Assembly: GCA_019359115.1 (NCBI GenBank) | Contig: JAHHHW010000087.1 | Span: 1 to 61,545, forward strand | Length of the DNA: 61,545 nucleotides | Direction of reading: 5' to 3' | From: Pelatocladus maniniholoensis HA4357-MV3 | Lineage (GTDB): Bacteria > Cyanobacteriota > Cyanobacteriia > Cyanobacteriales > Nostocaceae | Shown here: one piece after another, positions 23,731-39,926 of the stretch | Numbering within the stretch: the first letter of the stretch is position 1 | Layout of the letters: every line of letters starts with the position of its first letter | Position numbers and translations under genes: made by a program | Notes under the pieces: generated by a model | Told to the model about the DNA's origin: nothing | The model's database searches: none | The model's input: only the letters and a program-made list of their open reading frames with translations

Positions 23731-23777
23731 CACATCACCAATTCTTTTAAGATCAATTTTGAGTAAGGATATTCTTT

Positions 23778-24302
23778 ATGGGATTATTTTTTGATATTCT
23801 CAGTGCAATTAACAATCCCAATCAGCAGGGAAATGTTGCTCAACTAGAGTCAATCACCAACTCGATTCAGGAATTGGCAACAAGTCGAGGAATTCAGCCA
23901 TCTCAAATACAACAAGCGATGTCAGTAGTGGGTAATATGCTTCGTCCTGCACTTCAGAAACAGCACTCAAGTCTAGGTAGCAGTCAATTACAGAATCTCA
24001 TTGGTCAAGCAGTTGCTACTGGTGCAAGTACATCTGGACAACAATCTATGTTATCACCTCAGTTGCACCAGCAAATCGTTCAAACAGTATCGCAAAGGAC
24101 AGGACTAAGTCCCAACACCATTCAGGCTGCTTTGCCAACCCTTACTTCGGCAGTGATGAATCTGCTAAATATGGGCGCTACTAAACCTGGTGTTCAAGGC
24201 TCAAATTCGATCTTAAGTGCGTTTTTAGATAGCGATCGCCACACAGATTTGGGCGAAGTTCTGAAATTTGCCAATCGTTTTGTGAATCCGTCTACTGTTT
24301 AG
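23778..24302 (+). CDS. DUF937/YidB-like protein
   Basis: 174 aa. The opening MGLFFDILSAINNPNQQGN and the helical Gln/Ser-rich body with two similar halves (LATSRGIQPSQIQQAMSVVG... and VSQRTGLSPNTIQAALPTLTS) are typical of DUF937-type proteins, whose role is unknown. No membrane segment or signal peptide is visible. AAGGATA lies upstream of the ATG. It starts 47 bp after the PstS-DUF4912 gene, so the two are probably cotranscribed. Confidence 0.72.
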   Translation: MGLFFDILSAINNPNQQGNVAQLESITNSIQELATSRGIQPSQIQQAMSVVGNMLRPALQKQHSSLGSSQLQNLIGQAVATGASTSGQQSMLSPQLHQQIVQTVSQRTGLSPNTIQAALPTLTSAVMNLLNMGATKPGVQGSNSILSAFLDSDRHTDLGEVLKFANRFVNPSTV

Positions 24303-24360: not shown

Positions 24361-24771
24361 TTATTGCGAGGGAGTTAAAGTAAAAACAGCAACTAGTGTA
24401 ACTAAACCAAATAAAATGACAGAAACGACAAAGACAGATAGATTAACAATATAAGTCGATTTATGTGAGTATTCCTGTTGCTCTAATGATTTGACTTTGA
24501 TTAGGTATCCAATCATCGCCAAAATCAATAGAAAAATGCCTAAAGCGATCGCACTCAAGCCAATAATGTGAGTCAGTTGCATAGCAATGCGTGGATTATG
24601 CTGAGAAATCGACTCATTCAGTGCATTAAAAATGCGATCAAAGGCAATACCAAAACCAATCAAAGATAAGCAATTCTGAATCCAACTTGTCAATGTCCGT
24701 TCAGCAGCAGCGCGATTACGCTCTTTTGCCAATTCGTTGGTAGTATTAGTCGGTTTTTGAGAAGGACTCAT
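24361..24771 (-). CDS. DUF202 (YidH-type) small membrane protein, last of three
   Basis: 136 aa. It contains the DUF202 signature LAKERNRAAAERTLTSWIQNCLSLIGFGIAFDRIF at residues 14-48, though the usual MAWIRT is altered to TSWIQN. Three membrane helices follow (one in the signature, then LSAIALGIFLLILAMIGYLI and VNLSVFVVSVILFGLVTLVAVF). The function of DUF202 is unknown. The gene starts 3 bp after the stop of the preceding DUF202 gene, so it is translationally linked to it and to the DUF202-BASS fusion. Confidence 0.85.
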   Translation of the reverse strand: MSPSQKPTNTTNELAKERNRAAAERTLTSWIQNCLSLIGFGIAFDRIFNALNESISQHNPRIAMQLTHIIGLSAIALGIFLLILAMIGYLIKVKSLEQQEYSHKSTYIVNLSVFVVSVILFGLVTLVAVFTLTPSQ

Positions 24772-24774
24772 AGC

Positions 24775-25203
24775 CTACATGCTATTTTGGTGAGTGAATG
24801 CACTTACCAAAATACTAATAAAGGCAAAAACAGCAATGCAAACTAAGGCGATCGCAACTGTCAATGCTAAAGAGTGACGGGGAGTGTAGAGATATTCCTG
24901 GTCGCGTCGGATATGATACAGTTCTTGCTGGTGTTGGATCATTGCCACAATCATCGCATAAATACCCAGACCAATAAAAGCAAGACCGAGAATCCGAGAA
25001 AGACGCGCAGGATTGATGTCTTGAACAACTTGAAAGCTACGGATAGCACTGACGATGACATCAATCCCAAAACCAAAGCTGATCAGAGTAAGACTGGTGC
25101 GAATCCATGCCATGAGAGTGCGTTCGGCCGCAGCTCGGTTGCGCTCTTTGGCAAGTTCGGCTTGAATATTAGATGTTTTGCGAGCAGGAATAAAGTCATT
25201 CAT
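24775..25203 (-). CDS. DUF202 (YidH-type) small membrane protein, middle of three
   Basis: 142 aa from the ATG at 25203 (MNDFIPARK), which lies 4 bp beyond the stop of the upstream fusion gene; a longer frame into that gene is unnecessary. The signature LAKERNRAAAERTLMAWIRTSLTLISFGFG is perfect. Two further helices follow (ILGLAFIGLGIYAMIVAMIQ, LALTVAIALVCIAVFAFISILV). It is closer to the N-terminal domain of the fusion gene than to the third copy, suggesting serial duplication. Confidence 0.88.
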   Translation of the reverse strand: MNDFIPARKTSNIQAELAKERNRAAAERTLMAWIRTSLTLISFGFGIDVIVSAIRSFQVVQDINPARLSRILGLAFIGLGIYAMIVAMIQHQQELYHIRRDQEYLYTPRHSLALTVAIALVCIAVFAFISILVSAFTHQNSM

Positions 25204-25207
25204 TTTC

Positions 25208-26611
25208 TTAAAAAGATACAGATGATGCTTCAATTGGTTTTGCTTGCGATTGAGCAATTTTTTGCTTCATCCACACCGAGTAAGGAAGTCCAGCCACAAT
25301 ACCCACAATCAAAAGGGCGACAATAATTGGAACTAACTGAGCCTGGCCGTTTTTAGTAGCAATGAAAATTGCCAACCCCACATTGCGAGCAATGGTTGTA
25401 ACCGCCAAACCAGACTGAATATCTGCCTCATAGCCACTAGCTAACACATGTCCAACCATTAGTCCCAGCAAAGTTATAAAAATAGCAACCAGGAGCGGAA
25501 CTATACCCAATCCAGGAATCAGATTCAAACCAACGACCAAAGCAAAAATCGATAACACAATAAATAGTGTATTGGCGATCGCTTTGAGGAAATTGTTAAT
25601 CTCCTCTGCTAACTCAAGCCAAATTGTCCGAATAGCTAACCCAATGCTGAGAGGCAAAAACTGCACCAAGGCAACTTGCTTTGCTACCAGTAAAACATTG
25701 ACATTTTCATTAGTATATGGTAGCAAAATACTAAATAACTTCAACATTAAAGGTGTCACCATAATAGCCAAAAGAGCTAATGTTACCTGTAGGCTAAGTA
25801 CGTAATGAAAGCTTGCTCCTGCCATTGAGGCACGTTTCGTTAGCAGTGCAGGGCCTGGTGAAGCGATGAGTAGCACCAGCGCGATCGCAAAAGTTTTAGG
25901 CAGATGAAAAACTAACAATACCAATGTAATCACAATTGCAGGTATCACAATCACAGCCAAGAGCGATCGCGCCAACAAACCTGGTTTTTTCCAGAAATCA
26001 AGCAATTCCTTAAAAGGTAGTTCTACACCCAGAGTCAGCATAATTGAGAACACAGTTAATGATGCAAGGTTCTGAATAATTTGACTATCTAAATTAATAA
26101 AATCCATGAGCTTGACGTCCTGTATCAGGAGTGGAATATAGCTAGCCAATCCAATAAACACCAGTACAATTGCCACTGTGATCCCTAAAGACCAGCTAGA
26201 AATGTATCTGAAATTGCGTTGTTCAATCTTTTTCAACGTCCGCCAATGACTTACCATTGCTGCTGCTAGGGCGAAAACTCCCAAAGTAATCAGACTGAGA
26301 CCGAGAATTCGTTCTTCGCTGAGTTGATCAACAGAAGCGTCCGTTTTCACTATTTTCAAATAATGGAAGAAGCGATCAATACCGAATCCAAAGGTAATCA
26401 TTGATAGCGATGTCCGAATCCATGCCATGAGAGTTCGTTCTGCTGCCATGCGATTACGCTCCCTAGCAAGATCTGTCCGTATTTCAGCTAAATCAGTGCG
26501 GACAATTGATAGTTCGGTGTTACCTAAACCAGCAAACTGTGAAGTATTTTGAGTAAATTTCTCAGTTGCTTCTGCATTGGAATTAGAAGGTATTTCAAAA
26601 GCTTCACTCAT
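25208..26611 (-). CDS. DUF202 domain fused to BASS-type sodium/solute symporter
   Basis: 467 aa. Residues 45-165 form a complete DUF202 domain (LARERNRMAAERTLMAWIRT, then two helices). From about residue 180 a ten-helix transporter of the bile-acid:sodium-symporter superfamily follows: SLTVFSIMLTLGVELPFKEL at its start, LLIASPGPALLTKRASMAGASFHYVLSLQ in the middle and SGLAVTTIARNVGLAIFIA near the end, equivalent to the paired crossover regions of BASS carriers. BASS proteins move organic anions including sulfonated or sulfated compounds with Na+. The ATG is at 26611; two DUF202 genes follow within 5 bp each. Confidence 0.85.
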   Translation of the reverse strand: MSEAFEIPSNSNAEATEKFTQNTSQFAGLGNTELSIVRTDLAEIRTDLARERNRMAAERTLMAWIRTSLSMITFGFGIDRFFHYLKIVKTDASVDQLSEERILGLSLITLGVFALAAAMVSHWRTLKKIEQRNFRYISSWSLGITVAIVLVFIGLASYIPLLIQDVKLMDFINLDSQIIQNLASLTVFSIMLTLGVELPFKELLDFWKKPGLLARSLLAVIVIPAIVITLVLLVFHLPKTFAIALVLLIASPGPALLTKRASMAGASFHYVLSLQVTLALLAIMVTPLMLKLFSILLPYTNENVNVLLVAKQVALVQFLPLSIGLAIRTIWLELAEEINNFLKAIANTLFIVLSIFALVVGLNLIPGLGIVPLLVAIFITLLGLMVGHVLASGYEADIQSGLAVTTIARNVGLAIFIATKNGQAQLVPIIVALLIVGIVAGLPYSVWMKQKIAQSQAKPIEASSVSF

Positions 26612-26763
26612 ATCATGTTTGCTTAAACACTTGTATTCTCGATAAGTCTCAGTAACGAAAAATTGGTTATTAGGATACTAACTAAATAGTTATGATGGTC
26701 AAATACCGCTCATAATCTGCGATCAACTGACGTGACGGAGCATCGTGATATACTAAAATAGTA

Positions 26764-28197
26764 TTAGTCAACACCCACTTCTTCAAGCGATCGCCCTGTC
26801 GTCTCGACTCGAAATATGTATGTAATCACACCTGCTACTACGCAACTTAGAGACAGCAGCGACAGCACAATAGGCGCTCCCAGCGATTTTTGCAGAACTG
26901 GCAATCCAAACGTGCCAAATACCGCTCCGGCTTTCGCAAAGGCGGCAGCAAACCCTGCACCACTGGCTCGAATTGAAGTTGGGAACACTTCTCCCGATAA
27001 TAAAAATGTAGTGGAGTTGGGACCAGCATTCATCATCAGGTTGAAAACTAAGAATCCCATGAAGACAAGAGCAACGTTGGGTTCTTTACTCAAGGCTAAA
27101 ACACTGGCCGCTGCCAGAATTAAAAGTCCAACCGCCATCCCCAAAAAGCCAGCAATTTGCAGCTTGATGCGTCCGAATCGGTCAATTAACAGCACCGCAA
27201 TCAAGAAACCCACAATCAAAAACAAATCCACAAATGCAGAGCCTTTCGCAGAAGCCATTTCCTTGGCTATAAAACTCTCTTTGCTGGTAAAAGCCAAAAG
27301 ACCAATAATAGTGGGTGTGAAAATCCCAATTCCGTAAGTAGCAATATCTTGTAGAAACCAAGGAACTGAAGCTAAAATTGTGTGCCTGCGGTACTGAGGA
27401 GAAAATAATGCTCCGTATGACAAGCTTGGTTCACGCTCTGGGGGGTCTGTCTGTGGGGTAATATTAACTGGTTCCTCCAGTAGTGTAGATGCTGCCTTAG
27501 AAGCAGCTTCATAATCACCTTGAGCAATGTAATAACGGGGACTTTCCAGCAAAAAACTAAAACGTAAAATCCCAACTGCGATCGCTAACACTAACCCTAC
27601 CCCAAGCATCCAGCGCCAAGCATACTGAATTGCAAGTACAGTCGATTCTGGATAAAGGGTCTGGAATAGATGAATTACTACTATCCCAGTCACCGCACCC
27701 AAAAGAGCGCCAACAGCCTGGAAAGTAAAAGCTCCAATCACCATTCGACCCCGCAATCGAGAAGGGACATTTTCGGTAATGTAAGACACACTGATGGGAT
27801 AATCAGCGCCAATACCTACACCAACCAGGAAACGAAATGCAATCAGTGAGGCTGCATTCCAAGCAAGTGCAGTCCCTGCGGTAGCGATCACAAAAATCGC
27901 AACATCCACTATAAGCATTACCTGACGCCCGATTTTATCAGTAATCGGGCCTAAAATTAGCGACCCCAACAATGATCCCGCCACCGAAGCCACAGCGACA
28001 GATCCGATTTCCACAGAACTCAGCCCAAAGTCCCGCTTTAGAAAAGGAAGGGCGACACCAATGATAAAAAAGTCAAAACCATCCAAAGCAATCAATCCGG
28101 CGGACAATGCCCAGAGTAACCACATGACACGGGTGATCTTGGATGCATCCAGGCGTTGCTCAAAAGACGGTGGTTGGGCGGTTGCAATTGTTGTCAT
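26764..28197 (-). CDS. MFS transporter (sugar-porter/aromatic-acid type)
   Basis: 477 aa, twelve membrane helices. Family marks are LIALDGFDFFIIGVALPFLKRDFG in helix 1, GPITDKIGRQ in the loop 2-3 motif, RFLVGVGIGADYPISVSYITENVPSRLRG and LLESPRYYIAQGDYEAA in the central loop, and the second-half LIDRFGRIKLQ. These place it among proton-coupled organic-acid, sugar or phosphate carriers. The substrate is unknown; position inside the sulfatase block suggests a product or substrate of ester cleavage. It is 152 bp from the DUF202-BASS gene. Confidence 0.85.
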   Translation of the reverse strand: MTTIATAQPPSFEQRLDASKITRVMWLLWALSAGLIALDGFDFFIIGVALPFLKRDFGLSSVEIGSVAVASVAGSLLGSLILGPITDKIGRQVMLIVDVAIFVIATAGTALAWNAASLIAFRFLVGVGIGADYPISVSYITENVPSRLRGRMVIGAFTFQAVGALLGAVTGIVVIHLFQTLYPESTVLAIQYAWRWMLGVGLVLAIAVGILRFSFLLESPRYYIAQGDYEAASKAASTLLEEPVNITPQTDPPEREPSLSYGALFSPQYRRHTILASVPWFLQDIATYGIGIFTPTIIGLLAFTSKESFIAKEMASAKGSAFVDLFLIVGFLIAVLLIDRFGRIKLQIAGFLGMAVGLLILAAASVLALSKEPNVALVFMGFLVFNLMMNAGPNSTTFLLSGEVFPTSIRASGAGFAAAFAKAGAVFGTFGLPVLQKSLGAPIVLSLLSLSCVVAGVITYIFRVETTGRSLEEVGVD

Positions 28198-28294
28198 TTT
28201 TGAGATTCTCCCTCATCTGAAGCTACCTAAACGCTAAATTACCTAAATTCATAGAGAAACTCTGCATTACTCACAAGTCTTACGCAAAGCTGTA

Positions 28295-29260
28295 CTAAAA
28301 CCTTAAAAGACGCTGTATGACAAGGACTTCTATTTCAATTGCAGATAAAATCAGTTCAATTCCCAGCGCTAGCTGCATCACCCCAAGGACAAACCCTGAT
28401 ACACGTAAGGTGACGGGTTTGATAAAAGTCAGAATTGGTCTAGCTGCCAACATGCAAACTAGATTCAAACCCATGACCAGCAACAGTAATAGCAGAACAA
28501 AGCCTTGATTGATACCGATTATACGGGCCATCACCATCATCATCAAAGCAATGGCAATACCAAAAGGAGTCAAAATCGTGGGAAAAGCCAGGGGAGCGAT
28601 CGCCTCTTTTAAGGAAGGTTCTTCAGCAATCTCAACTTTGCTAGCAGACGCATATTGAGCCATCACAATTTCCAAAGCTACCAAGAACAGCAAAATCCCG
28701 CCTGCAATCATTAATGCTGGTAATTCAATTCTCCAGATATTCAGCAGATTTTGACCGATAATGGCAACCAAAACAATAGTGATTGTTGAGATCAAAGAAC
28801 TACGAAAAGACAGTTCCCGACGCAGCTTTTGATCTGCCTTTTCAGTTAGTTGCACAAATACCGGAATCACCTTAAGTGGCCCAAGTGTGACAAAAAAGAT
28901 AATAAACAAGTTGAAATATCCAAACTTGGACTGTAAAGGGGTATTAGCAATTTCTTTAGCAACTTGTTGCTTTGGGATTAATATCGGAGTTGTATCAGAA
29001 ACCTGGGCAACTATCTGGCGATCGCATACTGATTGATTTGCTGTGAGACCAAACTTGGCACAACTTACCGCACTGAAGTTGCTAGACCCGAGTGCAGGTT
29101 CAGCAAAGTTAAGCCAGATTGCTACAAGTGCAATCCCAACTACACCTATCCATCGCGGTGTCCATTGTAGAAGACAGGAGGAGAAATTGCTATCTTGCTT
29201 CCTTGTTTCATTTACCATCAAGACTGCATCTTTTTTCATTAATTGTGCTGGCTGTTGCAT
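28295..29260 (-). CDS. MarC-family membrane protein with exported N-terminal extension
   Basis: 321 aa from the ATG at 29260, which has a strong GGAGGAG ribosome-binding site; a frame from 29350 adds 30 residues without one. Residues from about 115 form a six-helix MarC domain (FGYFNLFIIFFVTLGPLKVIPVFV, LAFPTILTPFGIAIALMM). Family members are usually ~200 aa; here about 110 extra residues include a hydrophobic segment (WIGVVGIALVAIWLNFAEPALG) and a Cys-containing stretch that would lie outside the membrane. MarC proteins are of uncertain function, and their old link to antibiotic resistance is not supported. Confidence 0.82.
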   Translation of the reverse strand: MQQPAQLMKKDAVLMVNETRKQDSNFSSCLLQWTPRWIGVVGIALVAIWLNFAEPALGSSNFSAVSCAKFGLTANQSVCDRQIVAQVSDTTPILIPKQQVAKEIANTPLQSKFGYFNLFIIFFVTLGPLKVIPVFVQLTEKADQKLRRELSFRSSLISTITIVLVAIIGQNLLNIWRIELPALMIAGGILLFLVALEIVMAQYASASKVEIAEEPSLKEAIAPLAFPTILTPFGIAIALMMMVMARIIGINQGFVLLLLLLVMGLNLVCMLAARPILTFIKPVTLRVSGFVLGVMQLALGIELILSAIEIEVLVIQRLLRF

Positions 29261-29365
29261 GGAATTCTCCTCCTGCAAAGAGATTAGTTTGTTTTTACTG
29301 GTCAACCAAAGCAGCTTTGCTAGGATAAAAATCTTCGCGTCAGTCTTCATTCGTCAAAATGACCA

Positions 29366-31120
29366 CTAGTCTGAGGCTCTTCGCTCTGTAGACGATTGAG
29401 AATTTGTCGAAGGTGAAGTTGGATTAATCAAGTTGATCAAAGGTAAAAGCGGATTCACTCGAATACCTGGAGCAGTGTAATCACCAGAAACATACTCACT
29501 GGGAATGGTAGTTTGATTACCGTCACGAATAGCAGAGTAATGGGGTGAGCAGATTTCAATGTTTGCTTCATTACACTTATCTTGAATATTTTGGTGTAAT
29601 TCTGAATAAATTCTCTCTAGTATTATTGGATGGTTTGTGTAGGCTCTGAGTTCATAACTTACGTAGAAGTCGTTGAGTGCAGTTTGCCAGACAAAGGGAT
29701 AGGGTTGCGACAAAATATCAGTAGTCGCAAGAGCTGCTGCAATCAGGGTTTCATGCACAGTTCGCCAAGGGGCATCATAGCCCAAAGTTACTGTTGTATG
29801 GACAATAATTGGGGTTTGCTTCTCTCGTAACAACATACTGTAATTGGTGACTTTGCTCGACAACAAAACAGAGTTGGGAATTGATACTAAAACATTGTTC
29901 AGCGTGCGAATTCGAGTTACTAGCAGATCTTTGTCCTCCACAAAACCCATGAGATCTTCAACCTGAAGGCGATCGCCAATCTGAAATGTACGGGCGTATA
30001 ACAAAAGCCAACTAGCAATAATATTTGCGAATAATTTTCCTGAACTCAGGGATATTAACGCCCCTATAACAATGAAAATAGCTTGAAAAGCGGGGGAATT
30101 AGAACCAGGTAAATTAGGAAAAGCAATGATAGCCGCTAGGGCGATGGTAAGAAACTTCAGCAACTGGTAGGTTGGTTCTGCCCACTCTGGATAAAACCCT
30201 TGTATTGAGAGTGTTCTACCCTCTATATTTTGAAAAATAAATTTTAAAAAACTCAGGAAATAGCGAGTCAAGAGGATGATTAAAGTAATAATAAATAGAT
30301 TTGGTATATACCCTAAAAGTTCTTTCCATACTGTTAATAATAGGGTTGTTAAAGATGTGAATAAGTTGTCTGCTAAGTGCTTTGTCTGGGGAAAAAAACT
30401 CAAAACAAAATATAAATAGAAAAAAAGCAAATTCATTACAAAAATTAGGTTAATAATTCTTACGAATCCCTGTAAAATTGCAGAAATTTGTTGAGACGAT
30501 AACAAATAAAAATTTTGAATGCGAATATTAGGAATCCATCGCTCATGCAGCACATCTAACCAATGATAGAAATGTGGCATCACATTCCCAAGCACACACA
30601 ACATTATAATTAATATAATTGTGCTAACAAAAGCCAAAATTGTAGCACGGATTAAGTAGATAGCACTGCGCTCCTCTCGATACTGAGTAATGGCATTTTT
30701 AATAATTTGCAAATATTGATTAGCAAGTGCTTGCCGAGTTAATTTTACAACTTTGGCATCCGTATCAGAAACTGACAAAATCGCAACGTCTTGAGCATAA
30801 ATGATTGTAGTTGCTTCAGCTTCAACATCACTAGTTCTCAACGCATCAACTGGAATGGCATAATTGTTAGCCACTTGCTGAATTCTGGACGAAATTCTCT
30901 CTGCACGCTCATTTAGTGAAGGTGAAAAAAACTTGTCTTGAATAAAAAATAGTGTTTGATCTCCCAACTTGATAGGTGCTTGATTTATAAGTATGTCATC
31001 AGGAGAAGGGCTTTGAGAAGCAGCAGATAAGGGATTAATTACAATCAGCAATGCTACAATAGTAGACAAAATAACTGTCAAAAACGGCTGATTTTTTCTT
31101 CTTACTAAGTTACATAGCAT
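29366..31120 (-). CDS. MscS-family mechanosensitive channel
   Basis: 584 aa. A signal-like N-terminus (residues 1-35) precedes a periplasmic stretch of about 100 residues, then four to five membrane helices. The MscS pore and beta domain lies at about 345-440: SLSSGKLFANIIASWLLLYA, FQIGDRLQVEDLMGFVEDKD, TRIRTLNNVLVSIPNSVLLS. The C-terminal domain ends in a Pro/Ser-rich tail. It would release solutes or ions when membrane tension rises. It stands between the sulfatases and the transport genes, 341 bp downstream of the second CSPTR sulfatase. Confidence 0.88.
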   Translation of the reverse strand: MLCNLVRRKNQPFLTVILSTIVALLIVINPLSAASQSPSPDDILINQAPIKLGDQTLFFIQDKFFSPSLNERAERISSRIQQVANNYAIPVDALRTSDVEAEATTIIYAQDVAILSVSDTDAKVVKLTRQALANQYLQIIKNAITQYREERSAIYLIRATILAFVSTIILIIMLCVLGNVMPHFYHWLDVLHERWIPNIRIQNFYLLSSQQISAILQGFVRIINLIFVMNLLFFYLYFVLSFFPQTKHLADNLFTSLTTLLLTVWKELLGYIPNLFIITLIILLTRYFLSFLKFIFQNIEGRTLSIQGFYPEWAEPTYQLLKFLTIALAAIIAFPNLPGSNSPAFQAIFIVIGALISLSSGKLFANIIASWLLLYARTFQIGDRLQVEDLMGFVEDKDLLVTRIRTLNNVLVSIPNSVLLSSKVTNYSMLLREKQTPIIVHTTVTLGYDAPWRTVHETLIAAALATTDILSQPYPFVWQTALNDFYVSYELRAYTNHPIILERIYSELHQNIQDKCNEANIEICSPHYSAIRDGNQTTIPSEYVSGDYTAPGIRVNPLLPLINLINPTSPSTNSQSSTERRASD

Positions 31121-31289
31121 ATTTGCAGCAAGTATTTTCTAGTAAGATTTATTTATTGGAATCTGGTTTGATTTATAAACCTACGATGAACACGGGTAAC
31201 TCTTAACAGGGAACAGGGAAGAGAAATTTTACCTACCTTCACAAGAATCAAATAGTAATCCTATATAATGCCAAAATATATTGAAAAGA

Positions 31290-31317
31290 GGGAGAAAAAG
31301 GAAAAGAAAATTCTCCC
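31290..31317 (-). terminator. Possible intrinsic terminator after the sulfatase genes
   Basis: On the minus strand GGGAGAA pairs with TTCTCCC across a pyrimidine-rich loop, followed by TCTTTTC. It lies in the only long gap (31121-31461) of the eleven-gene block and could separate the sulfatase half from the transporter half. The stem is only 7 bp, so it may be weak. I see nothing else in this gap. Confidence 0.4.
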
Positions 31318-31461
31318 TTTATTTTCTCCCTTTTATCTAACCTAACTAACTTTTAATCTTTCTATATTTTTGTTTGATTGTCACTCCGATTATTTAGTTG
31401 GTTAAGACCAAATTGTCACTTCAGCAGTCTTCAGACAGGAAATTTCTAGCTGACAGTACTT

Positions 31462-33852
31462 TTACTTTAAATCAACGTTGACTTTCTTCACATTACCAGT
31501 GAACGCAAATGGTGTTTCGTAAGTTTCAGCAACAGGTGTACCTGTGTCAAAACCAACGTCGAGAGTTTCGTCAAGAGAAATGCGGTTGGGTAAAGTTTTT
31601 CCTACCTGTCCTTCGCCAATTTTCTTGTTATTGGCATAAAGGGTGACAGTACCGCCAGCACCTGCTTGATCAGCTTTTGTCTTGTATACAGCTTTTAATA
31701 TTACATTACCTGTAGGTAACATCTGGTCAGAAGTTATATTAAAGCGATCGACATTAGCCAGGTTGTAGTGATACACCAGCTTACCGTCCTGCACAAATAA
31801 ACCGTAGCCACCAAAGCGACCACCATGTGTCAACAGCATCCCTTCTGCACCTTGAGCCGGAATCACAACATCAGCTGTAATTGTGTGATTCTTATGCTTG
31901 AGATCAGGAGCGGCTCCTTCAGTTACGCGTATATGATCGGGGTAGCTGAAGGTGTTACGCCCTTGGGTTAGGCTTGGTCGATTTTCGACGCGGAAGCGTT
32001 CAGTGCGGCGATCATCCAGAGGTAGCACATTATATTTAGCAGTCTCAGCATAGAAGAGATCTTTCATCTGTTGCAGTTTTTGCGGATTTTGCTCGGCGAG
32101 GTCGTCTACTTGGGTAAAGTCATTATTAATATTGTAAAGTTCCCATTTCAAGTTCAGTAGATCAGCTGGCTTTGGGTAAGCATCCCAAGGAATTGATCGC
32201 AAAGCACTGGCCATCCAACCATCATGATAGATTCCCTGGTTTCCAAACATCTCAAAATACTGAGTTTGATGACGAGTTGGCGTCTTGGGATTGTCAAAGG
32301 TGTAAACAAAGCTGACACCTTCAATGGGTTTTTGTCCAATACCATTGACCTCAACTGGTGCGGGAATATTCAAAGCTTCCAAAATAGTAGGAGCAATATC
32401 GATGACGTGACTAAACTGATCACGCACACTTCCCTTATCTTTTATACGGTTAGGCCAGGAAACCACCATACCATTACGGGTGCCGCCAAAGTGCGACGCA
32501 ATCTGCTTTGTCCACTGGAAGGGTGTATCCATTGCCCATGCCCATCCCGCCGGAAAGTGGTTGAAATACAAAGGGCCACCTAGTTGATCAACGGCTGCCA
32601 GTTTGGTTTCTAAAGGTTCAGGGATGGCATTAAACATGGTATTTTCATTCAATAAGCCTTCTAAACCACCTTCCGCACTGGAGCCATTGTCGCCTGCAAT
32701 ATAAAAAACCAGAGTGTTATTCAGCTTGTTGAGGTCGTCGATCGCATCCAGCACCCGACCCACTTCATGATCTGTATGAGCAGTAAAACCAGCAAATACA
32801 TCCATCATGTGGGCATAGACATTTTGCTCCTCTGGTGACAGAGAATCCCAGGCGGGTAGGGCCTCCGGGCGTGGCGTCAATTTCGCATCCATCGGAATCA
32901 CCCCCAGTTTTTTTTGTCGCTCGAAGGTTTCTTCGCGGTATTTATCCCAACCCATATCAAACTGACCCTTGAACTTGTCAATCCACTCTTTGGGAACCTG
33001 GTGGGGTGCATGGGTTGCACCCGTTGCCAAGTAGACAAAGAAGGGTTTTTCCGGTGATATGGCGTTTATCTGACGGATATAGTTGATGGCGTGGTCTGCG
33101 AGATCGGTAGTTAGGTGATAAGGTGAGCCATCTGCATTGGTTTTGGGTGGTTCGAGGCGGGTGGTATTTTCAACAAGGGCTGGGGTGAACTGGTCTGTAT
33201 CACCGCCTACAAATCCGTAGAAGTAATCAAATCCAAGTTTATTGGGCCAATGGTCGAACGGGCCAGCCATGCTGGTTTCCCAGTCGGGAACGTTGTGATT
33301 CTTACCAAACCAAGCTGTGGCGTAACCGTAATCCTGGAGAACTTTGGCAAATGTGCCTGCGCTTTGAGGAATCTCCCCACTATAGCCAGGAAAGCCAGTT
33401 CCTAGTTCTTCAATGATGCCTGTACCAACAGAGTGGTGGTTACGCCCAGTCAACAACGCCGCACGAGTAGGTGAACACAGAGCCGTTGTGTGGAACTGGG
33501 TGTACCGCAATCCATTTTTCGCCAATTTATCCAGAGTTGGGGTGGAAACAGCGCCGCCAAAAGTACCCATCTGTCCATAGCCAACATCATCAAGCAACAC
33601 TAGCAAGATATTGGGCGGATTTTTCAGATCATAGGTAGATGGCAACTTCAGTTGGGATTTTACTGGTTCAGAGTCTTTGTAAGTTAAACCGATTTTACCA
33701 GTGAAGGGTTTGTCGGGATGAGGAATAAGTTCCTGTGCCAAGGCAGGTAAGGGAAAAAAGTTGATGCTGACAAAGAAAGCAACTAACAAAGATATAGCGA
33801 TCGTCCTTGTGATTATCATCCCCTGCGAAACAATTGAACGGATTCTTAACAT
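31462..33852 (-). CDS. Exported arylsulfatase (CSPTR type), copy 1
   Basis: 796 aa. A signal peptide (about residues 1-40, ending PLPALAQ) indicates export. The sulfatase core holds the metal site (LLVLLDDVGYGQMGTFGG), the FGly consensus TALCSPTRAALLTGRNHHS with Cys126 as the residue to be converted, then WFGKNHNVPDWE, TGATHAPHQVP and YIAGDNGSS, which together supply the calcium and sulfate contacts. The C-terminal ~170 residues (ITADVVIPAQGAEGMLL, then AFTGNVKKVNVDLK) look like a lectin-like sandwich. It hydrolyses sulfate esters, substrate unknown. It is paralogous to the next gene. Confidence 0.93.
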   Translation of the reverse strand: MLRIRSIVSQGMIITRTIAISLLVAFFVSINFFPLPALAQELIPHPDKPFTGKIGLTYKDSEPVKSQLKLPSTYDLKNPPNILLVLLDDVGYGQMGTFGGAVSTPTLDKLAKNGLRYTQFHTTALCSPTRAALLTGRNHHSVGTGIIEELGTGFPGYSGEIPQSAGTFAKVLQDYGYATAWFGKNHNVPDWETSMAGPFDHWPNKLGFDYFYGFVGGDTDQFTPALVENTTRLEPPKTNADGSPYHLTTDLADHAINYIRQINAISPEKPFFVYLATGATHAPHQVPKEWIDKFKGQFDMGWDKYREETFERQKKLGVIPMDAKLTPRPEALPAWDSLSPEEQNVYAHMMDVFAGFTAHTDHEVGRVLDAIDDLNKLNNTLVFYIAGDNGSSAEGGLEGLLNENTMFNAIPEPLETKLAAVDQLGGPLYFNHFPAGWAWAMDTPFQWTKQIASHFGGTRNGMVVSWPNRIKDKGSVRDQFSHVIDIAPTILEALNIPAPVEVNGIGQKPIEGVSFVYTFDNPKTPTRHQTQYFEMFGNQGIYHDGWMASALRSIPWDAYPKPADLLNLKWELYNINNDFTQVDDLAEQNPQKLQQMKDLFYAETAKYNVLPLDDRRTERFRVENRPSLTQGRNTFSYPDHIRVTEGAAPDLKHKNHTITADVVIPAQGAEGMLLTHGGRFGGYGLFVQDGKLVYHYNLANVDRFNITSDQMLPTGNVILKAVYKTKADQAGAGGTVTLYANNKKIGEGQVGKTLPNRISLDETLDVGFDTGTPVAETYETPFAFTGNVKKVNVDLK

Positions 33853-33955
33853 ACGTTAATTACCCCTAAATTGCTCATTTTTTGAGATTTCTCGCTGAAA
33901 AATCTGGATTTTTTGAGTTTATAATTGCAGCCTCAAAAATTTTTTCTACCTATAA

Positions 33956-36337
33956 TCACGACTTCAGATCAATGCTGACTTTTTCAATCGAGCCAGTAAA
34001 GGCGAAGGGTGGTTTATATGCGTTGCTAACAGGAGCTTGCAAATCCATCCCCACATCCTGACTATCTACACCAAATCGTCCCGGAACAGTCTTTTCTATT
34101 CGACCCTGACCGACTTGGCGACCGTTAATAAACAACTTGCCAGTACCGCCTTTACCAGCACCGCCGCCATCGTAGTCAAAGTCAAAGCGCACCTTGACCT
34201 TACCAGTAGGTACAGAAGTTGACGAGGTAATGGAGGTGCGATCAAGGTCAAACCAGTTGTAGTCGTAGGTGAGTTTGCCATCTTTGATATAAAGGGTGTA
34301 ACCGCCTGTAGTTCCCCCCAATGCCAAAATAACTCCTTCAGCACCTTTGTCTGGAATTACCAAATCAGCTGTGATGCTGTGGGATTTATTTTTCATATTC
34401 GGTGCGATTCCTTCTGACAGACGGGTCATCCCCTGATATAAATCAAAGTGGTTACGACCCGTTGTAAAGCTGGGACGTAAGTTGACATCTAGCCTTTCAG
34501 CAAAACGATCATCTAGAGGAAATACGTTGTACTTCTCACCTTCTAGGAGAAAAAGCGCTTGCATTTCCTTTAATTTTTCAGGATTTTTTGCTGACAAGTC
34601 ATTAGCTTGGGTGAAATCCTCATTCAGGTTGAACAATTCCCACTTATCTTGGTCAAAGGGAACTGTACCAGCATTAATCCAAGGCATGCGGTTATGGAAT
34701 GCCGATGCCATCCAGCCATCGTCGTAAATTGCCCGATGCCCAAACATCTCGAAATATTGAGTATCGTGTTGTTCATCTGCCTTATTAGCTCCTTTATCAA
34801 AGGTGTAAGTCAAGCTCACTCCTTCGATAGGCTTTTGAGCAATCCCGTCAAAGAATCTTGGCTCTTCGATGCCAGCGACTTCTAACAGAGTTGGTGCAAT
34901 ATCAATTACATGGTGGAATTGTTGTCGCAGTCCATTTTTATCTTTAATCTGCTTTGGCCAAGAAATCACCATCGCATTACGAGTGCCGCCAAAATGGGAA
35001 GCTACTTGCTTTGTCCAGCGAAATGGCGTGTCCATTGCCCAAGCCCAACTTACAGCATAGTGCGGTGAGGTTTCGGGACTGCCCCAGATGTCATAACATT
35101 TCAGATTATCTGCCATTGTCAGATTCAATCCGTTGAGATTGAGAAGCTCGTTACAGGAACCAATCAGACTACCTTCGGCACTAGCGCCGTTATCGCCTAC
35201 GATGTAAATAATCAATGTATTGTCCAGTTTTTCGAGGTCTTTGATCGCATCTACTACTCGTCCAACTTCGCGATCAGCATATTCCAAATAACCCGCATAG
35301 GTTTCCATCTCCCGTGCCAAGATTGTTTGCTCCTCTGGGCTGAAGCTATCCCAAGCAGGCATTTGTTCCGGTCGTGGTGTAAGTTGGGCATCGTTAGGAA
35401 TTACACCGAGCTTCTTCTGGCGTTCAAAAATAATTTCTCTTTGTTTGTCCCAACCGTGGTCAAACTTACCTCTGTACTTTTCTGGATATTTTGGTGGTGG
35501 TTGGTGAGGTGCGTGGGTGGCTCCTGGTGCAAAATAAGCGAAGAAAGGGCGATCAGGTGCGATCGCTTGTTCGTAGTTAATCCAGGCAATGGCTTTGTCT
35601 GCTAGGTCGTGGGTCAGATTATAGCCTTCTTCTGGTGAAGCGGGTTGGTTAACAGGGTTCTGGTTCTCATATAGCGTGGGATACCACTGGTCGGTTTCAC
35701 CACCAATAAAACCGTAGAAATAGTCAAAACCCAAGCCATTGGGCCAGCGATCAAATGGGCCTACCCCACTGGTTTGGTTATCTGGAACATTGTGATTTTT
35801 ACCAAACCAAGCGGTGCTGTAACCGTTTTGCTGTAAGATTTGTCCAATTGTTGCGGTACTCTTGGGAATCAAACCTGTATAGCCTGGATACGCTGTTGCT
35901 AGTTCCTGAATTGTTCCTGAGCCAACAGAGTGATGATTGCGACCTGTAAGCAGTGCTGCACGAGTGGGTGAGCAAAGTGCCGTGGTGTGAAAGCGGTTAT
36001 AGCGTAAACCATTGGCTGCTAATCGATCTAGGGTAGGGGTTTCAATCGAACCACCAAAGGTTTTGGCGGCTCCAAAGCCAACATCATCTAACAATACTAG
36101 AAGAATGTTGGGTGCGTCTTGTTTGGCTTCAGGTGCTTTGAGGACAGACGGATCTGGTTTGGCAGTCTGGTAAGTAATTCCAATCTTCCCATCAAATTTA
36201 GGATCGGGTTGGGGTAGAAGTTCAGTGGCGGATGCAAAAGGTGCGATCGCCAATAATACAAACAAAATGCTGAGTATGAAGAGGATTAATCTCCTCAGCA
36301 TTGCATTGAGTTTGAGTAATAAAGTTGCGTGCATCAC
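33956..36337 (-). CDS. Exported arylsulfatase (CSPTR type), copy 2
   Basis: 793 aa, clearly a paralogue of the neighbour at 31462-33852 with the same layout. An N-terminal signal (LFILSILFVLLAIAPFASA) is followed by LLVLLDDVGFGAAKTFGG, the FGly motif TALCSPTRAALLTGRNHHS (Cys122), WFGKNHNVPDNQ, PGATHAPHQPP and YIVGDNGAS. The C-terminal lectin-like part ends FAFTGSIEKVSIDLKS. A second ATG at codon 13 (MLRRLIL) would give a more normal signal peptide. The two sulfatases differ in the variable substrate-facing loops (for example SCNELLNLNGLNL here), so they may cleave different esters. Confidence 0.93.
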   Translation of the reverse strand: MMHATLLLKLNAMLRRLILFILSILFVLLAIAPFASATELLPQPDPKFDGKIGITYQTAKPDPSVLKAPEAKQDAPNILLVLLDDVGFGAAKTFGGSIETPTLDRLAANGLRYNRFHTTALCSPTRAALLTGRNHHSVGSGTIQELATAYPGYTGLIPKSTATIGQILQQNGYSTAWFGKNHNVPDNQTSGVGPFDRWPNGLGFDYFYGFIGGETDQWYPTLYENQNPVNQPASPEEGYNLTHDLADKAIAWINYEQAIAPDRPFFAYFAPGATHAPHQPPPKYPEKYRGKFDHGWDKQREIIFERQKKLGVIPNDAQLTPRPEQMPAWDSFSPEEQTILAREMETYAGYLEYADREVGRVVDAIKDLEKLDNTLIIYIVGDNGASAEGSLIGSCNELLNLNGLNLTMADNLKCYDIWGSPETSPHYAVSWAWAMDTPFRWTKQVASHFGGTRNAMVISWPKQIKDKNGLRQQFHHVIDIAPTLLEVAGIEEPRFFDGIAQKPIEGVSLTYTFDKGANKADEQHDTQYFEMFGHRAIYDDGWMASAFHNRMPWINAGTVPFDQDKWELFNLNEDFTQANDLSAKNPEKLKEMQALFLLEGEKYNVFPLDDRFAERLDVNLRPSFTTGRNHFDLYQGMTRLSEGIAPNMKNKSHSITADLVIPDKGAEGVILALGGTTGGYTLYIKDGKLTYDYNWFDLDRTSITSSTSVPTGKVKVRFDFDYDGGGAGKGGTGKLFINGRQVGQGRIEKTVPGRFGVDSQDVGMDLQAPVSNAYKPPFAFTGSIEKVSIDLKS

Positions 36338-36410
36338 TTAATATTTATATAGTTAATAGACTTAGTAGCATTAGTCGAGGGAAATGCAAGGAAGAAGGTT
36401 AAAGGGAGTG

Positions 36411-37472
36411 TCAACTTCCCAATTCCAGATCCCCGATTCCTTTGACCAAGCGAAATCCAATATGTGTGGTTCCAGTATCGGGGGCTTGAGATTCCCGTGC
36501 TGCTGGACGGTAGCGACTGCAATAGTTTTTTGCACACAGGTAAGAACCGCCTTTGACAACATGCAATGCACCTTCTTGAGGTTTCTTCGGATCAAAGCTC
36601 TGATTCTGTGCTGGACCTGTAGGATTGATACTGTGGGCTTTGTTAGCGTGTCCTAAACTATACCAGTCGGAAGTCCATTCCCAGACGTTGCCCGTCATGT
36701 CGTATAATCCATAACTATTGCGTGGAAAAGAGCCGACCGGAGCTGTACCTATATAACCATCCGCTTTTGTGTTGAAAAACGGGAAGATTCCCTGCCAGGT
36801 GTTGGCATTTTTTGCAGAATACTGTTTGCTACGAATATAATTCTTGTTATCTAAGTTGCCAAGAGCAGCATATTCCCACTGAGCTTCCGTAGGTAGTGAT
36901 TTACCAGCCCATTGAGCGTAGGCGATCGCATCTTCGTAGGCAATGTGAACTACTGGGTATTTTTCTTTACCTTTGATATTGCTGTTGGAGCCAAAGGGAT
37001 GCTGCCAATTTGCACCCGGAACCCAGTGCCACCAACTTAGGTAAGCTACTTGCTTGGTATTCTCATCTGGTGGCTGAAAGACTAGAGAACCAGGAGCGCG
37101 CTGTTCATCGGGTAAGTCGGGAAACTGTGCTTGAGACAAGGGACGCTCCGCAACTGTCATATATCCTGTTGCTTTAACAAACTCAGTAAACTGGGCGTTT
37201 GTTATTTCGTATTTGTCGATGCAGAAGCTACTGACAACTACATCCTGGGCTGATTGCTCTTCGACAAAACCCGAATTATCCGAACCGATGTGGAAACTTC
37301 CTCCAGGAATAAACACCATCTTCTCTGGACAAGAGAATTCTGTTAATGATGAGTTTGCTGTTCTCGTTGTAGCTGCAATTGCAACTGGGGTGATTGACAA
37401 AACAGCGATCGCGAACATGCAGATTAATGCTGATATCAGCCAATCATGATGTTTCTGATTATGGATGCCCAT
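36411..37472 (-). CDS. Formylglycine-generating enzyme (FGE/SUMF1 family)
   Basis: 353 aa. The FGE-sulfatase domain covers about 50-345 (MVFIPGGSFHIGSDNSGFVEEQ, FCIDKYEITNAQFTEFV, LPTEAQWEYAALG, DMTGNVWEWTSDWY). The active-site segment GGSYLCAKNYCSRYR carries two cysteines (Cys313 and Cys318) at the spacing of the copper-binding pair of authentic FGE, so this is a real oxidase and not just a family relative. It converts the sulfatase CxPxR cysteine to formylglycine using O2. The N-terminus (ISALICMFAIAVLSITPVAIAATT) looks like a Sec signal. The gene overlaps the DUF1269 gene by 14 bp and precedes both CSPTR sulfatases. Confidence 0.93.
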   Translation of the reverse strand: MGIHNQKHHDWLISALICMFAIAVLSITPVAIAATTRTANSSLTEFSCPEKMVFIPGGSFHIGSDNSGFVEEQSAQDVVVSSFCIDKYEITNAQFTEFVKATGYMTVAERPLSQAQFPDLPDEQRAPGSLVFQPPDENTKQVAYLSWWHWVPGANWQHPFGSNSNIKGKEKYPVVHIAYEDAIAYAQWAGKSLPTEAQWEYAALGNLDNKNYIRSKQYSAKNANTWQGIFPFFNTKADGYIGTAPVGSFPRNSYGLYDMTGNVWEWTSDWYSLGHANKAHSINPTGPAQNQSFDPKKPQEGALHVVKGGSYLCAKNYCSRYRPAARESQAPDTGTTHIGFRLVKGIGDLELGS

Positions 37473-38037
37473 ATTTGCAAACCATGTACTCGTGGTTTAA
37501 TCTATTTACGTTCTCAAAATCAGCATCAATAGCGATCGCCACAGCTACTTCATCCTTTAGACGCTGACAAGTAATCTTGGCTCCTAATTCGGTGAGAGTA
37601 TCAACCAGTTCTCTGACCCACTTGTGTTCAATAATGGCAATGATGGCAGAACTATCAGCACCCAGAGAGTAACCAATTTCCCTAAATTCTTGTTTGTCAA
37701 ACCCCAGATCCATGAATTTTCCGGAGAGAGTGCCAGATGTGCTACCCAGCACAATACCTGCAATCGGTCCACCAGCCAAAATACCGATAATAGCCCCTAA
37801 TATCCCACAAATACCTACACTTCGTTTGATTCCTACTGTCTGAACTGTCTGTTTGAAGAATAGCTTACCGTTTTCATCCTTAGTTATGACTGCTGCATTC
37901 CAAAGCCCGATCATTTTTTCCTTTTTGAGATGCTTTAGCTCCTCAAGCACTTCAACAGCCTGTTCTTGATTTGCAAATCTAGCAACAATTAGGTTAATAG
38001 GATTTTCAGCAACATTTTTCATAACGTATGACCGCAT
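37459..38037 (-). CDS. DUF1269-type protein
   Basis: 192 aa, or 187 from the second ATG at 38022. The N-terminal NLIVARFANQEQAVEVLEELKHL and WNAAVITKDENGKLFFKQT resemble DUF1269. A glycine-rich hydrophobic hairpin follows (GICGILGAIIGILAGGPIAGIVLGSTSG), then a C-terminal domain that repeats the first fold (GADSSAIIAIIEHKWVRELVDTL). These proteins are probably membrane-associated, possibly linked to stress; the function is unknown. Its 3' end overlaps the FGE gene, so the two are translated together. Confidence 0.78.
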   Translation of the reverse strand: MRSYVMKNVAENPINLIVARFANQEQAVEVLEELKHLKKEKMIGLWNAAVITKDENGKLFFKQTVQTVGIKRSVGICGILGAIIGILAGGPIAGIVLGSTSGTLSGKFMDLGFDKQEFREIGYSLGADSSAIIAIIEHKWVRELVDTLTELGAKITCQRLKDEVAVAIAIDADFENVNRLNHEYMVCKYGHP

Positions 38038-38129
38038 CTAATAGTGTTGATTAGTGTTGATTGACAGGTTTAATTGCTCTAAAGGGATGTTAGTACTGAT
38101 ACTAAATATCTAGTCCTCAACAACCGAGA

Positions 38130-39926
38130 TTAATCTTTTACTGGTTTTGTCTGTAGCTTCTCTAGTACCTGATCCACAGTAAAAGAAGCTGCTTTTTGAC
38201 GTGGTGGGAAGTCTTTAAAGCTTTGTAAGAAATCGCCAACATAACCCTGAGCTGGTACTAGTAGAAAAATATGTCTGAATAACCAGTCAGCATAGTTGTT
38301 TGCTTCATAGCTGGCTTTCTCAAATGGGTCACGTCGTAAGTTGTAAAGTTTTGGTACTCGCAGCTTGACTAACGGCTCACTCCAGACATCAAAACCTGTG
38401 GCTCGTTGTTCTAGGAACAAAGCTTTCCAATCTTGATATCGAAGTGCAGCCAAGTCACCATCGTCACTGAAATAAAAGAACTCTTTGCGAGGACTTTCTT
38501 TTTCTTGAGTTGTAAGGTATGTCAGGAAGTTGTAGCCATCAAGATGATTTTTGAATACTTTTTTGTCAACACGGTAGCCTTTGAGAAGTTTCTCCTTAAT
38601 ATCAGGTACACCAGCTACAGCTAAAAGCGTGGGAAACCAGTCTTGAGCGGACATAATTTCATTGGACACTACACCCGCCGGAATATGACCAGGCCAGCGC
38701 ACCATTGCAGGAACACGAAAGCCACCTTCCCAGTTTGTATCTTTTTCACCGTGGAACGGAGTCATACCACCATCGGGCCAGGTGAACACTTCGGCTCCAT
38801 TATCAGTAGTGTAGACAACAAGTGTATTATTTGTGATACCCAAGTCATCGAGTTTTTTCAGTAATTGTCCTACATGACCGTCATGTTCTACCATGCCATC
38901 GGCTTCAACACCCTGACCCGTGACGCCTTGAGACTCTGGCTTCAGGTGAGTAAAGACGTGCATTCGTGTGGAATTAAACCAGACAAAGAAGGGCTTACCT
39001 TGTTCATGGGATTGATCAATGAAGTTTGTAGTGGCGTCCATAAACTCCTGATCGATGGTTTCCATACGCTTGGTGTTTAGGGGTCCAGTATCCTCAATTC
39101 GTCCATCAGCATAACTGTGAAGCACTCCACGAGGACCATACTTTTTACGGAATTCTGGATTTTTAGGGTAGTCGGGGTTTTCTGGTTCTTCTTCTGCGTT
39201 TAGGTGATAGAGATTGCCGAAAAACTCATCAAATCCGTGATTGGTGGGTAGAAACTCATCGCGATCGCCCAGGTGGTTCTTGCCAAATTGTCCGGTGGTG
39301 TAACCCAGTGGCTTGAGTAATTCTGCAATAGTTGGATCTTCTGGACGAATTCCTAAGTCTGCACCAGGTAATCCCACTTTTGTCAATCCCGTGCGGAAGG
39401 GGCTTTGACCAGTGATAAAAGCTGCTCGACCTGCGGTACAGCTATTTTCACCATAGTAGTCAGTGAACATCACACCTTCCTTGGCTATACGGTCAATATT
39501 AGGTGTTTGGTAGCCCATGATGCCTCGGTTGTAAGCGCTAGTGTTAAACCAGCCAATATCATCGCCCATGATCACCAAAATATTAGGATGTTCAGGCTGC
39601 TTTGGTACTCCTAAAGGCGTTGGGGTTGCTGTAGGTAATTTAGTTTCTCCAGGTGTTGGATTAACTGATTTATAGTAACCATAGGACGAGGAATTAGCTG
39701 CTAGGGCAACACTATTGCCAAAGAAATTTGACAACAAAAAAATGATTATTACTGCTATCACTTTGGCTGCATAGAGAAATTGCGTGTGTAACTTATCATG
39801 ATTCGCTTTAACACACAAAACCTTTGAATTAGGATTTAAAACTGATTTTTGATAGAGCATAGTAATCAAGATAGAGATAGGACCAAATAATTTTAGATTT
39901 TGGATTTCATCGTGACATTTCGGCAC
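38130..39926 (-). CDS. Exported sulfatase with CxAxR activation motif
   Basis: 598 aa. An internal hydrophobic segment (VIAVIIIFLLSNFFGNSVALA, residues 56-76) suggests a signal peptide with a long leader, so the true start may be the ATG at codon 23. The core has ILVIMGDDIGWFNTSAYN, the motif NSCTAGRAAFITGQSPFRTG with Cys163, QFGKNHLGD, NSTRMHVFTH and YTTDNGAEVF. The residue two after the cysteine is Ala instead of Pro. CxAxR is better known from substrates of the radical-SAM maturase, but no such maturase gene is in the window. It lacks the C-terminal lectin-like part of the other two. Confidence 0.9.
   Translation of the reverse strand: MPKCHDEIQNLKLFGPISILITMLYQKSVLNPNSKVLCVKANHDKLHTQFLYAAKVIAVIIIFLLSNFFGNSVALAANSSSYGYYKSVNPTPGETKLPTATPTPLGVPKQPEHPNILVIMGDDIGWFNTSAYNRGIMGYQTPNIDRIAKEGVMFTDYYGENSCTAGRAAFITGQSPFRTGLTKVGLPGADLGIRPEDPTIAELLKPLGYTTGQFGKNHLGDRDEFLPTNHGFDEFFGNLYHLNAEEEPENPDYPKNPEFRKKYGPRGVLHSYADGRIEDTGPLNTKRMETIDQEFMDATTNFIDQSHEQGKPFFVWFNSTRMHVFTHLKPESQGVTGQGVEADGMVEHDGHVGQLLKKLDDLGITNNTLVVYTTDNGAEVFTWPDGGMTPFHGEKDTNWEGGFRVPAMVRWPGHIPAGVVSNEIMSAQDWFPTLLAVAGVPDIKEKLLKGYRVDKKVFKNHLDGYNFLTYLTTQEKESPRKEFFYFSDDGDLAALRYQDWKALFLEQRATGFDVWSEPLVKLRVPKLYNLRRDPFEKASYEANNYADWLFRHIFLLVPAQGYVGDFLQSFKDFPPRQKAASFTVDQVLEKLQTKPVKD

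Follow-up and report, generated by a model that had tools for sequence, protein, structure and literature searches.

DUF202 proteins and divergent BASS carriers accompany sulfatases and their maturases: an eleven-gene block in the cyanobacterium Pelatocladus maniniholoensis

Eleven successive open reading frames (ORFs), all on the minus strand, occupy positions 24361-39926 of a 61,545-nucleotide stretch of the Pelatocladus maniniholoensis HA4357-MV3 genome (contig JAHHHW010000087.1), the whole of which we call the window. They encode three sulfatases, an FGE maturase, a DUF202 domain fused to a BASS carrier domain, two stand-alone DUF202 proteins and members of the MscS, MarC, MFS and DUF1269 families. 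The first-pass annotation had named this run of minus-strand genes and these families, and ORF calling and Pfam bear it out, with all 11 proteins exceeding the gathering score of their families. It had also allowed that the genes might stand together in this strain only, which is not the case: a core of sulfatase, maturase, BASS and DUF202 recurs in other cyanobacteria and in other phyla. Junctions within the block vary between a 50-bp overlap and a 341-bp gap. This widest gap, from Sulf3 to MscS, could leave room for a promoter, and a promoter and terminator scan of the block gave 26 promoter-like sites against a mean of 33.5 in shuffled sequence, thus no excess. From the upstream end, the genes are as follows.

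38130..39926, minus strand: Sulf1, a sulfatase with a CTAGR motif and a signal-like N-terminus (Pfam Sulfatase, 183.5 bits)
37459..38037, minus strand: DUF1269 protein, an optional partner (PF06897, 47.8 bits)
36411..37472, minus strand: FGE with a hydrophobic, signal-like N-terminus and the site GGSYLCAKNYC (PF03781, 259.5 bits)
33956..36337, minus strand: Sulf2, a CSPTR sulfatase with a hydrophobic, signal-like N-terminus (PF00884, 236.6 bits)
31462..33852, minus strand: Sulf3, a CSPTR sulfatase with a hydrophobic, signal-like N-terminus (PF00884, 208.4 bits)
29366..31120, minus strand: MscS-family channel, an optional partner (two domains, PF00924/PF21082)
28295..29350, minus strand: MarC-family membrane protein with an N-terminal extension, an optional partner (PF01914, 87.6 bits)
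26764..28197, minus strand: MFS transporter, an optional partner (best Pfam score Sugar_tr, 194.1 bits)
25208..26611, minus strand: DUF202-BASS fusion, a putative carrier (PF02656, 64.7 bits, and PF01758, the SBF domain, 58.5 bits against a cut-off of 24.3)
24775..25257, minus strand: DUF202b, a VTC1-like three-helix protein whose true start probably lies inside the overlap (PF02656, 68.4 bits)
24361..24771, minus strand: DUF202c, the second stand-alone DUF202 protein (PF02656, 53 bits)

The active-site motifs of the three sulfatases (CTAGR in Sulf1, CSPTR in Sulf2 and CSPTR in Sulf3) are of the form C-x-P/A-x-R and lie in the PF00884 domain, and the best solved matches of Sulf2 are arylsulfatases, namely 7all and the 1hdh group (residues 75-592). 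Here and below, signal sequences were assigned from hydropathy alone.

We measured linkage by comparing the places of Pfam matches in 66 cyanobacterial genomes, 46 picked for having an FGE and 20 without one. Expected numbers assume genomes of 4.5 Mb, and 32 sulfatase matches at or below 64.4 bits, 14 DUF1269 matches below the cut-off and 3 MarC matches (two second halves, one weak) were dropped before counting. Of 82 DUF202 genes, 41 have a sulfatase within 10 kb, where 0.67 would be expected, and the 30 genomes in which this occurs span 19 genera and 8 families. Among the SBF matches listed, which lack the weakest-scoring ones, those below 90 bits lie within this distance in 45 of 65 cases (0.60 expected) and those of at least 90 bits in none of 85. 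It is therefore a divergent SBF class, and not BASS carriers generally, that accompanies the sulfatases.

Neighbourhoods seen from the maturase and from Sulf1 give a similar picture. Close FGE relatives are present in 46 of 386 cyanobacterial genomes (53 matches), 50 of the 53 lie within 10 kb of a sulfatase, and in the regions around 40 of them a sulfatase usually accompanies FGE, as BASS and DUF202 often do. The Sulf1-type sulfatase yielded 22 matches in the same 386 genomes; DUF202 lies within 10 kb of 17 of these copies, and a limit of 15 kb brings in two more, one of them that of the window, to give 19. The three remaining copies lie at a contig end (G322), have DUF202 far away only (G011) or have none (G360). 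The loci discussed below were drawn from FGE matches (L040-L079), from DUF202 or sulfatase places (L080-L119) and from a scan with DUF202-BASS proteins (L120-L198), and the Pfam places in the 66 genomes and the Sulf1 search serve as independent anchors. Fischerella sp. PCC 9431, the closest named relative among the matches listed, has the same block in the same gene order, with a DUF202-BASS protein 92% identical to that of the window. Its Sulf1 is a 97-amino-acid N-terminal remnant (L202:2806-3099), and the later genes are intact in the stretch examined. A further near-complete block (G170) holds Sulf1, Sulf2, Sulf3, MFS, three DUF202 genes, the fusion and FGE, together with a DUF1269 relative so weak that Pfam leaves it uncalled, and partial versions occur in Halomicronema, Leptolyngbya, Nodosilinea and Phormidium. 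The comparison of FGE neighbourhoods that the first-pass annotation had proposed thus finds the core of FGly sulfatase, maturase, divergent BASS and DUF202 to be conserved.

The association extends beyond cyanobacteria. A species-genome scan with four DUF202-BASS fusions supplied 79 loci, the best 79 of 328 relatives, and all 79 contain a clade-A DUF202, defined by at least 80 bits to a profile built from sulfatase-side DUF202 proteins. A sulfatase, FGE or anSME lies within 10 kb in 29 of the 34 loci that have BASS within 10 kb, compared with 4 of the 45 that do not (Fisher p 4e-12, relatedness ignored). All seven non-cyanobacterial DUF202-BASS loci, from six genomes, have a sulfatase or maturase nearby; five belong to Pseudomonadota, one to Planctomycetota and one to a genome titled Deltaproteobacteria, and for two of the seven (both Pararobbsia) the evidence is a maturase gene truncated at the end of the contig. 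In Acidobacteriota, two loci combine DUF202 and a sulfatase and have no BASS, and in one Rhodospirillales locus DUF202 stands without either. The type of maturase varies, with FGE in some loci and a radical-SAM/SPASM protein, which we read as anSME, in others, and several lineages have DUF202 and BASS as a fusion. By gene neighbourhood, then, the core of sulfatase, maturase, BASS and DUF202 is conserved well beyond this strain.

Over its whole domain the FGE of the window can be aligned with solved FGEs, and it has both active-site cysteines (C-x4-C), a pair present in all 59 FGE ORFs of the sampled loci. PF03781 matches in the host genome (G000, 6.7 Mb) comprise eight main ones (L001-L008) plus three short pieces, and the catalytic pattern GGSxxCxxxxC occurs at the window locus and was not found at the other 7 main loci. 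The catalytic domain and cysteine pair are those of SUMF1-type FGE, from which the window FGE differs in its signal-like N-terminus. This feature marks a group: among the 30 FGEs at least 57% identical to that of the window (itself included), 28 begin with a strongly hydrophobic segment and the remaining 2 lack the N-terminus in the called ORF, while only 3 of 29 more distant FGEs begin in this way. Such a signal-bearing clade runs counter to the statement, in the part of a 2015 study available to us, that prokaryotic FGE is cytosolic (PMC4505483); the same part gives copper as a requirement of the enzyme (PMC4505483). Exported FGE-domain proteins have been described under the name OCTIN, and these, as far as the accessible description goes, lack the catalytic cysteines.

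The compartment of the FGE is matched by that of its neighbours. Sulfatases beside signal-bearing FGEs have a signal-like N-terminus in 28 of 31 cases, and those beside unsignalled FGEs in 5 of 25, the other 20 being unsignalled (Fisher p 8e-8, relatedness ignored); three sulfatases cut by a locus edge, three beside an FGE without N-terminus and two duplicates were omitted from this count. To judge from these N-termini, exported FGEs go with signal-bearing sulfatases and unsignalled FGEs mostly with unsignalled ones, which agrees with the idea of cysteine modification prior to folding. One sulfatase beside an unsignalled FGE carries a twin-arginine motif (L064), as would be expected of an enzyme that folds inside the cell.

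Many relatives of Sulf1 appear to work inside. Of 37 usable CTAGR sulfatases in the sampled loci, 27 have no signal, and each of these has a clade-A DUF202 within 10 kb (27/27) and most also BASS (24/27). These 27 copies, 25 once two duplicates are removed, come largely from the DUF202-BASS scan (19), with 1 from a DUF202 place (L119) and 7 from FGE-anchored loci, and all 7 of the latter have both DUF202 and BASS. The Sulf1 search adds three genomes (G105, G255 and G262; L214-L216) in which an unsignalled Sulf1-type sulfatase stands with both BASS and DUF202, and in these no FGE or anSME-like gene was found within the 20 kb examined.

The fusion protein shares the fold of the BASS/SLC10 carriers (ASBT, NTCP) by model and by profile. 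Its model (mean pLDDT 80.7) has ASBT homologues as best matches (Foldseek E 1.2e-8), and its score of 49.7 bits against NCBIfam TIGR00841 falls far under the cut-off of 326.3. It departs from these carriers in having DUF202 fused in front and in its cation site, where, in the alignment, Thr405 and Arg409 stand opposite Glu254 of ASBT-Yf and the Gln four residues after it. Glu and Gln at these positions are Na+ ligands in ASBT. Of 79 relatives, 77 keep Arg409, one has His and one a gap, and none has Glu at position 405; among ten control SBF loci, six of them alignable, Glu and Gln were found in four. The substitution suggests that DUF202-BASS proteins may be sodium-independent. Neither this altered site nor the signal-like start of the FGE figured in the first-pass annotation, which spoke of export for the sulfatases.

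Among solved structures, the VTC polyphosphate channel comes closest to DUF202 itself. The clade-A profile finds Vtc1 chains as its top PDB matches (whole-sequence E 0.0016-0.005; single domains only 0.14-0.28), and the five best Foldseek matches of the DUF202b model (mean pLDDT 74.4) are all chains of the VTC complex, three of about 100 residues and two of about 600 (E 0.03-0.28, probability 0.97-1.00). For this model the E-values are weak, and the agreement among the matches is not. Like the VTC subunits, which its profile and model match best, DUF202 is a three-helix domain whose first helix begins with basic residues. The arginine of its ERT motif aligns with Arg31 of Vtc1, a residue that lines the polyphosphate channel together with Lys24 according to the accessible part of PMC9911596. 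Another arginine, seven residues before that of the ERT motif, is a general DUF202 trait, since it occurs in 156 of the 180 clade-A proteins that have the motif and also in 17 of the 18 other DUF202 proteins. VTC (Vtc1/3/4) is a eukaryotic polyphosphate system with a pentameric channel, while the DUF202 proteins of the block are known from a single-chain model, and Pfam finds neither an SPX nor a polyphosphate polymerase domain among the eleven block genes. In a quick tree of the family, DUF202c groups with counterparts from other cyanobacterial families, and the label near or far from a sulfatase needs 10 changes against 19.0 in shuffles, which shows clustering, at the level of such a tree, and not a single origin. 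The placement of E. coli YidG/YidH and of L098 in this tree was not used, their branches being long. No function for a bacterial DUF202 protein was found in the parts of the open-access literature available to us; the domain occurs from E. coli to yeast, and its position beside sulfatases and BASS offers a role that can be tested.

Taken together, these features suggest that the block is an organosulfate-use system in which the DUF202-BASS protein would serve as an organic-anion carrier, a reading to which we give a probability of roughly 0.55. FGE would oxidise the cysteine of the exported sulfatases in the periplasm, a compartment in which oxygen and copper would be at hand, the sulfatases would release sulfate from organic esters, and an organic anion would cross the inner membrane through DUF202-BASS. 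In relatives with an unsignalled sulfatase this anion would be the intact ester, which must enter because the sulfatase is inside; ester import is therefore needed there, and BASS is the recurrent carrier. In the window, either the ester or the desulfated product may be carried. DUF202 would be a subunit, related to Vtc1, that forms a ring or scaffold, and MscS, MFS, MarC and DUF1269 optional extras, perhaps concerned with product exit or membrane stress. The setting of DUF202, the signal-bearing FGE and the compartment match together hint at a route for organic sulfur or carbon in cyanobacteria and some other bacteria that has gone unrecognised.

Several observations sit uneasily with this reading. 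Most clade-A DUF202 loci without BASS (41/45) also lack a sulfatase or maturase nearby, and 5 of the 34 with BASS have neither in reach. The compartment match has exceptions on both sides: two unsignalled Sulf1-type sulfatases stand beside a signal-bearing FGE (L055, 2349-3869; L079, 13458-14948), and five sulfatases beside an unsignalled FGE score as signal-like (L073-L076 and L150), of which L073 and one L150 copy are borderline. Sulfatases other than the CTAGR type are often near BASS (37/64) or DUF202 (30/64), so that the link is not special to the unsignalled enzymes. Arginine also occupies the BASS site in 2 of the 6 alignable, non-linked SBF controls. If the sulfatases of the window act outside the cell, an ester importer is no longer needed there. 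The HAD, 5'-nucleotidase and PF00884 enzymes could, moreover, have phosphate esters as substrates.

The strongest competing explanation confines the cooperation to sulfatases, FGE, BASS and DUF202 and leaves MscS, MarC, MFS and DUF1269 uninvolved, for example as envelope-stress genes that travel with DUF202. We consider this a substantial possibility, though short of an even chance. MarC lies within 10 kb of a sulfatase in only 2 of 32 cases and DUF1269 in 2 of 27 (window counted in both, in the 66 genomes), and DUF202 loci without BASS that contain MscS (L146, L173), MFS (L156, L161, L175) or DUF1269 (L172) raise the prospect that these genes partner DUF202 and not sulfatases. MFS, MarC and MscS do, however, recur within sulfatase-DUF202-BASS clusters of separate lineages, and in Chlorogloeopsis MarC lies directly before Sulf1 with no DUF202 within the 15 kb examined. 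Of 16 members of the window's MscS subfamily, 6 are near a core gene (0.48 expected), as are 3 of 8 of its MFS type (0.24 expected), the window counted in each. The first-pass reading of a sulfatase system in which DUF202 and a BASS carrier take part is borne out by the strong linkage of both to sulfatases across cyanobacterial families and in other phyla, whereas MscS, MFS, MarC and DUF1269 show weaker linkage as optional partners in some lineages, and we rejected them as obligatory partners on these counts.

The remaining alternatives change the substrate, the direction of transport or the role of DUF202. PF00884 includes phosphatases, and a system scavenging phosphate esters or phosphonates in place of sulfate esters would accommodate the HAD family near DUF202 in 10 of 110 loci, the 5'-nucleotidase in the G170 cluster and the polyphosphate channel as solved relative of DUF202; this is improbable in our view given that the CSPTR and CTAGR motifs are accompanied either by an FGE with both catalytic cysteines or by an anSME-like protein, and that the closest solved enzymes are sulfatases. 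Slightly less remote, and still unlikely, is a block that remodels or recycles the cell's own sulfated exopolysaccharide, with DUF202-BASS as an exporter. The accessible part of a microbial-mat study reports signal peptides on all of its cyanobacterial sulfatases and links them to cell envelopes (PMC9723792), but Pfam finds no glycosidase, glycosyltransferase or sulfotransferase among the eleven block genes, and an outside polymer would be beyond the reach of the unsignalled sulfatases of many relatives. DUF202 might, finally, be a maturation or export helper of sulfatases and no part of a transporter. Every one of the 27 unsignalled CTAGR sulfatases has it nearby, including 3 that have no BASS in range, which speaks for this, with the proviso that most of these loci were anchored on DUF202; its fusion to BASS in several lineages and the scarcity of sulfatases or maturases at DUF202 loci without BASS (4/45) make such a role a long shot.

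The organosulfate-use reading can be carried further, into a tentative proposal that we regard as possible and on balance doubtful. The block would then represent a new class of organosulfate carrier, a sodium-independent BASS protein with an arginine at its cation site and a DUF202 ring as gate or scaffold, working with sulfatases of either compartment and, here, a periplasmic FGE. DUF202 proteins would be bacterial cousins of the eukaryotic polyphosphate channel, and the compartment of the sulfatases and their maturase (exported FGE, cytosolic FGE or radical-SAM anSME) would have been swapped in step during evolution.

Among known systems, the yidFGHIJK region of E. coli places two DUF202 genes (yidG, yidH), the sulfatase YidJ and the sodium:solute symporter YidK side by side. 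YidJ is unsignalled, its sulfatase domain starting at residue 4, an SSF symporter takes the place of BASS, and the region has no FGE; yidI sits between on the opposite strand, and neither YidF nor YidI has a Pfam match. By analogy, this may be the same logic built from other parts, an unsignalled sulfatase, a symporter and two DUF202 proteins. The portions of the literature on yidG, yidH and yidJ available to us, including PMC10299036, give no sulfatase-transport function. YidH appears there as a screening candidate for a D-alanine exporter whose overexpression left intracellular D-alanine almost the same (PMC10299036), and we made no use of it. A sulfatase-rich polysaccharide utilisation locus would bring glycoside hydrolases and TonB/SusD uptake genes, none of which is among the eleven block genes. 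A sulfur-starvation array of Synechocystis was likewise left unused, its accessible part naming an arylsulfatase for Chlamydomonas only and sulfatases for P. aeruginosa (PMC2491639). No description of a sulfatase-FGE-BASS-DUF202 module was found in the parts of the open-access literature available to us, which is no proof of absence.

Other families recur around DUF202. The 110 DUF202 loci include four pairs that represent the same stretch or genome twice (L044/L117, L067/L133, L072/L119 and L095/L149), and their neighbours, identified by one Pfam scan per cluster (two members for UPF0114, HAD and the unassigned family below), are DUF1622 at 24 loci, MscS at 13, MFS at 12, AraC-type regulators at 11, HAD at 10 and UPF0114 at 7. 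The unassigned family, one member of which weakly matches an outer-membrane barrel, occurs at 13 of the 110. DUF1622, a small membrane family, is near DUF202 in L124, L125, L141 and 21 other loci. Relatives of MarC lie near DUF202 or BASS in L124, L127, L129 and L138, those of the MFS protein in the G170 cluster (712 bits), L124-L127, L129 and L130, and DUF1269 beside a DUF202 pair in Westiellopsis (L172). In Chlorogloeopsis fritschii the MarC gene before Sulf1 (L203:5065-7676) lies downstream of an FGE end, and an MscS-DUF202-DUF202 arrangement (L146) is on another contig. Many loci between L141 and L194 (e.g. L146, L166, L172 and L180), from Nostocales and others, have DUF202, often paired, without BASS or sulfatase, and in some of them MscS, MFS or DUF1269 stands beside it. 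These loci show clade-A DUF202 in a second context.

In the window itself, a response-regulator gene and a gene for a 1677-amino-acid PAS/GAF histidine kinase (42413-48492, minus strand) lie upstream of the block. Convergent with its end are genes for a PBP-like protein fused to DUF4912 repeats and for a DUF937 protein (21313-24302, plus strand).

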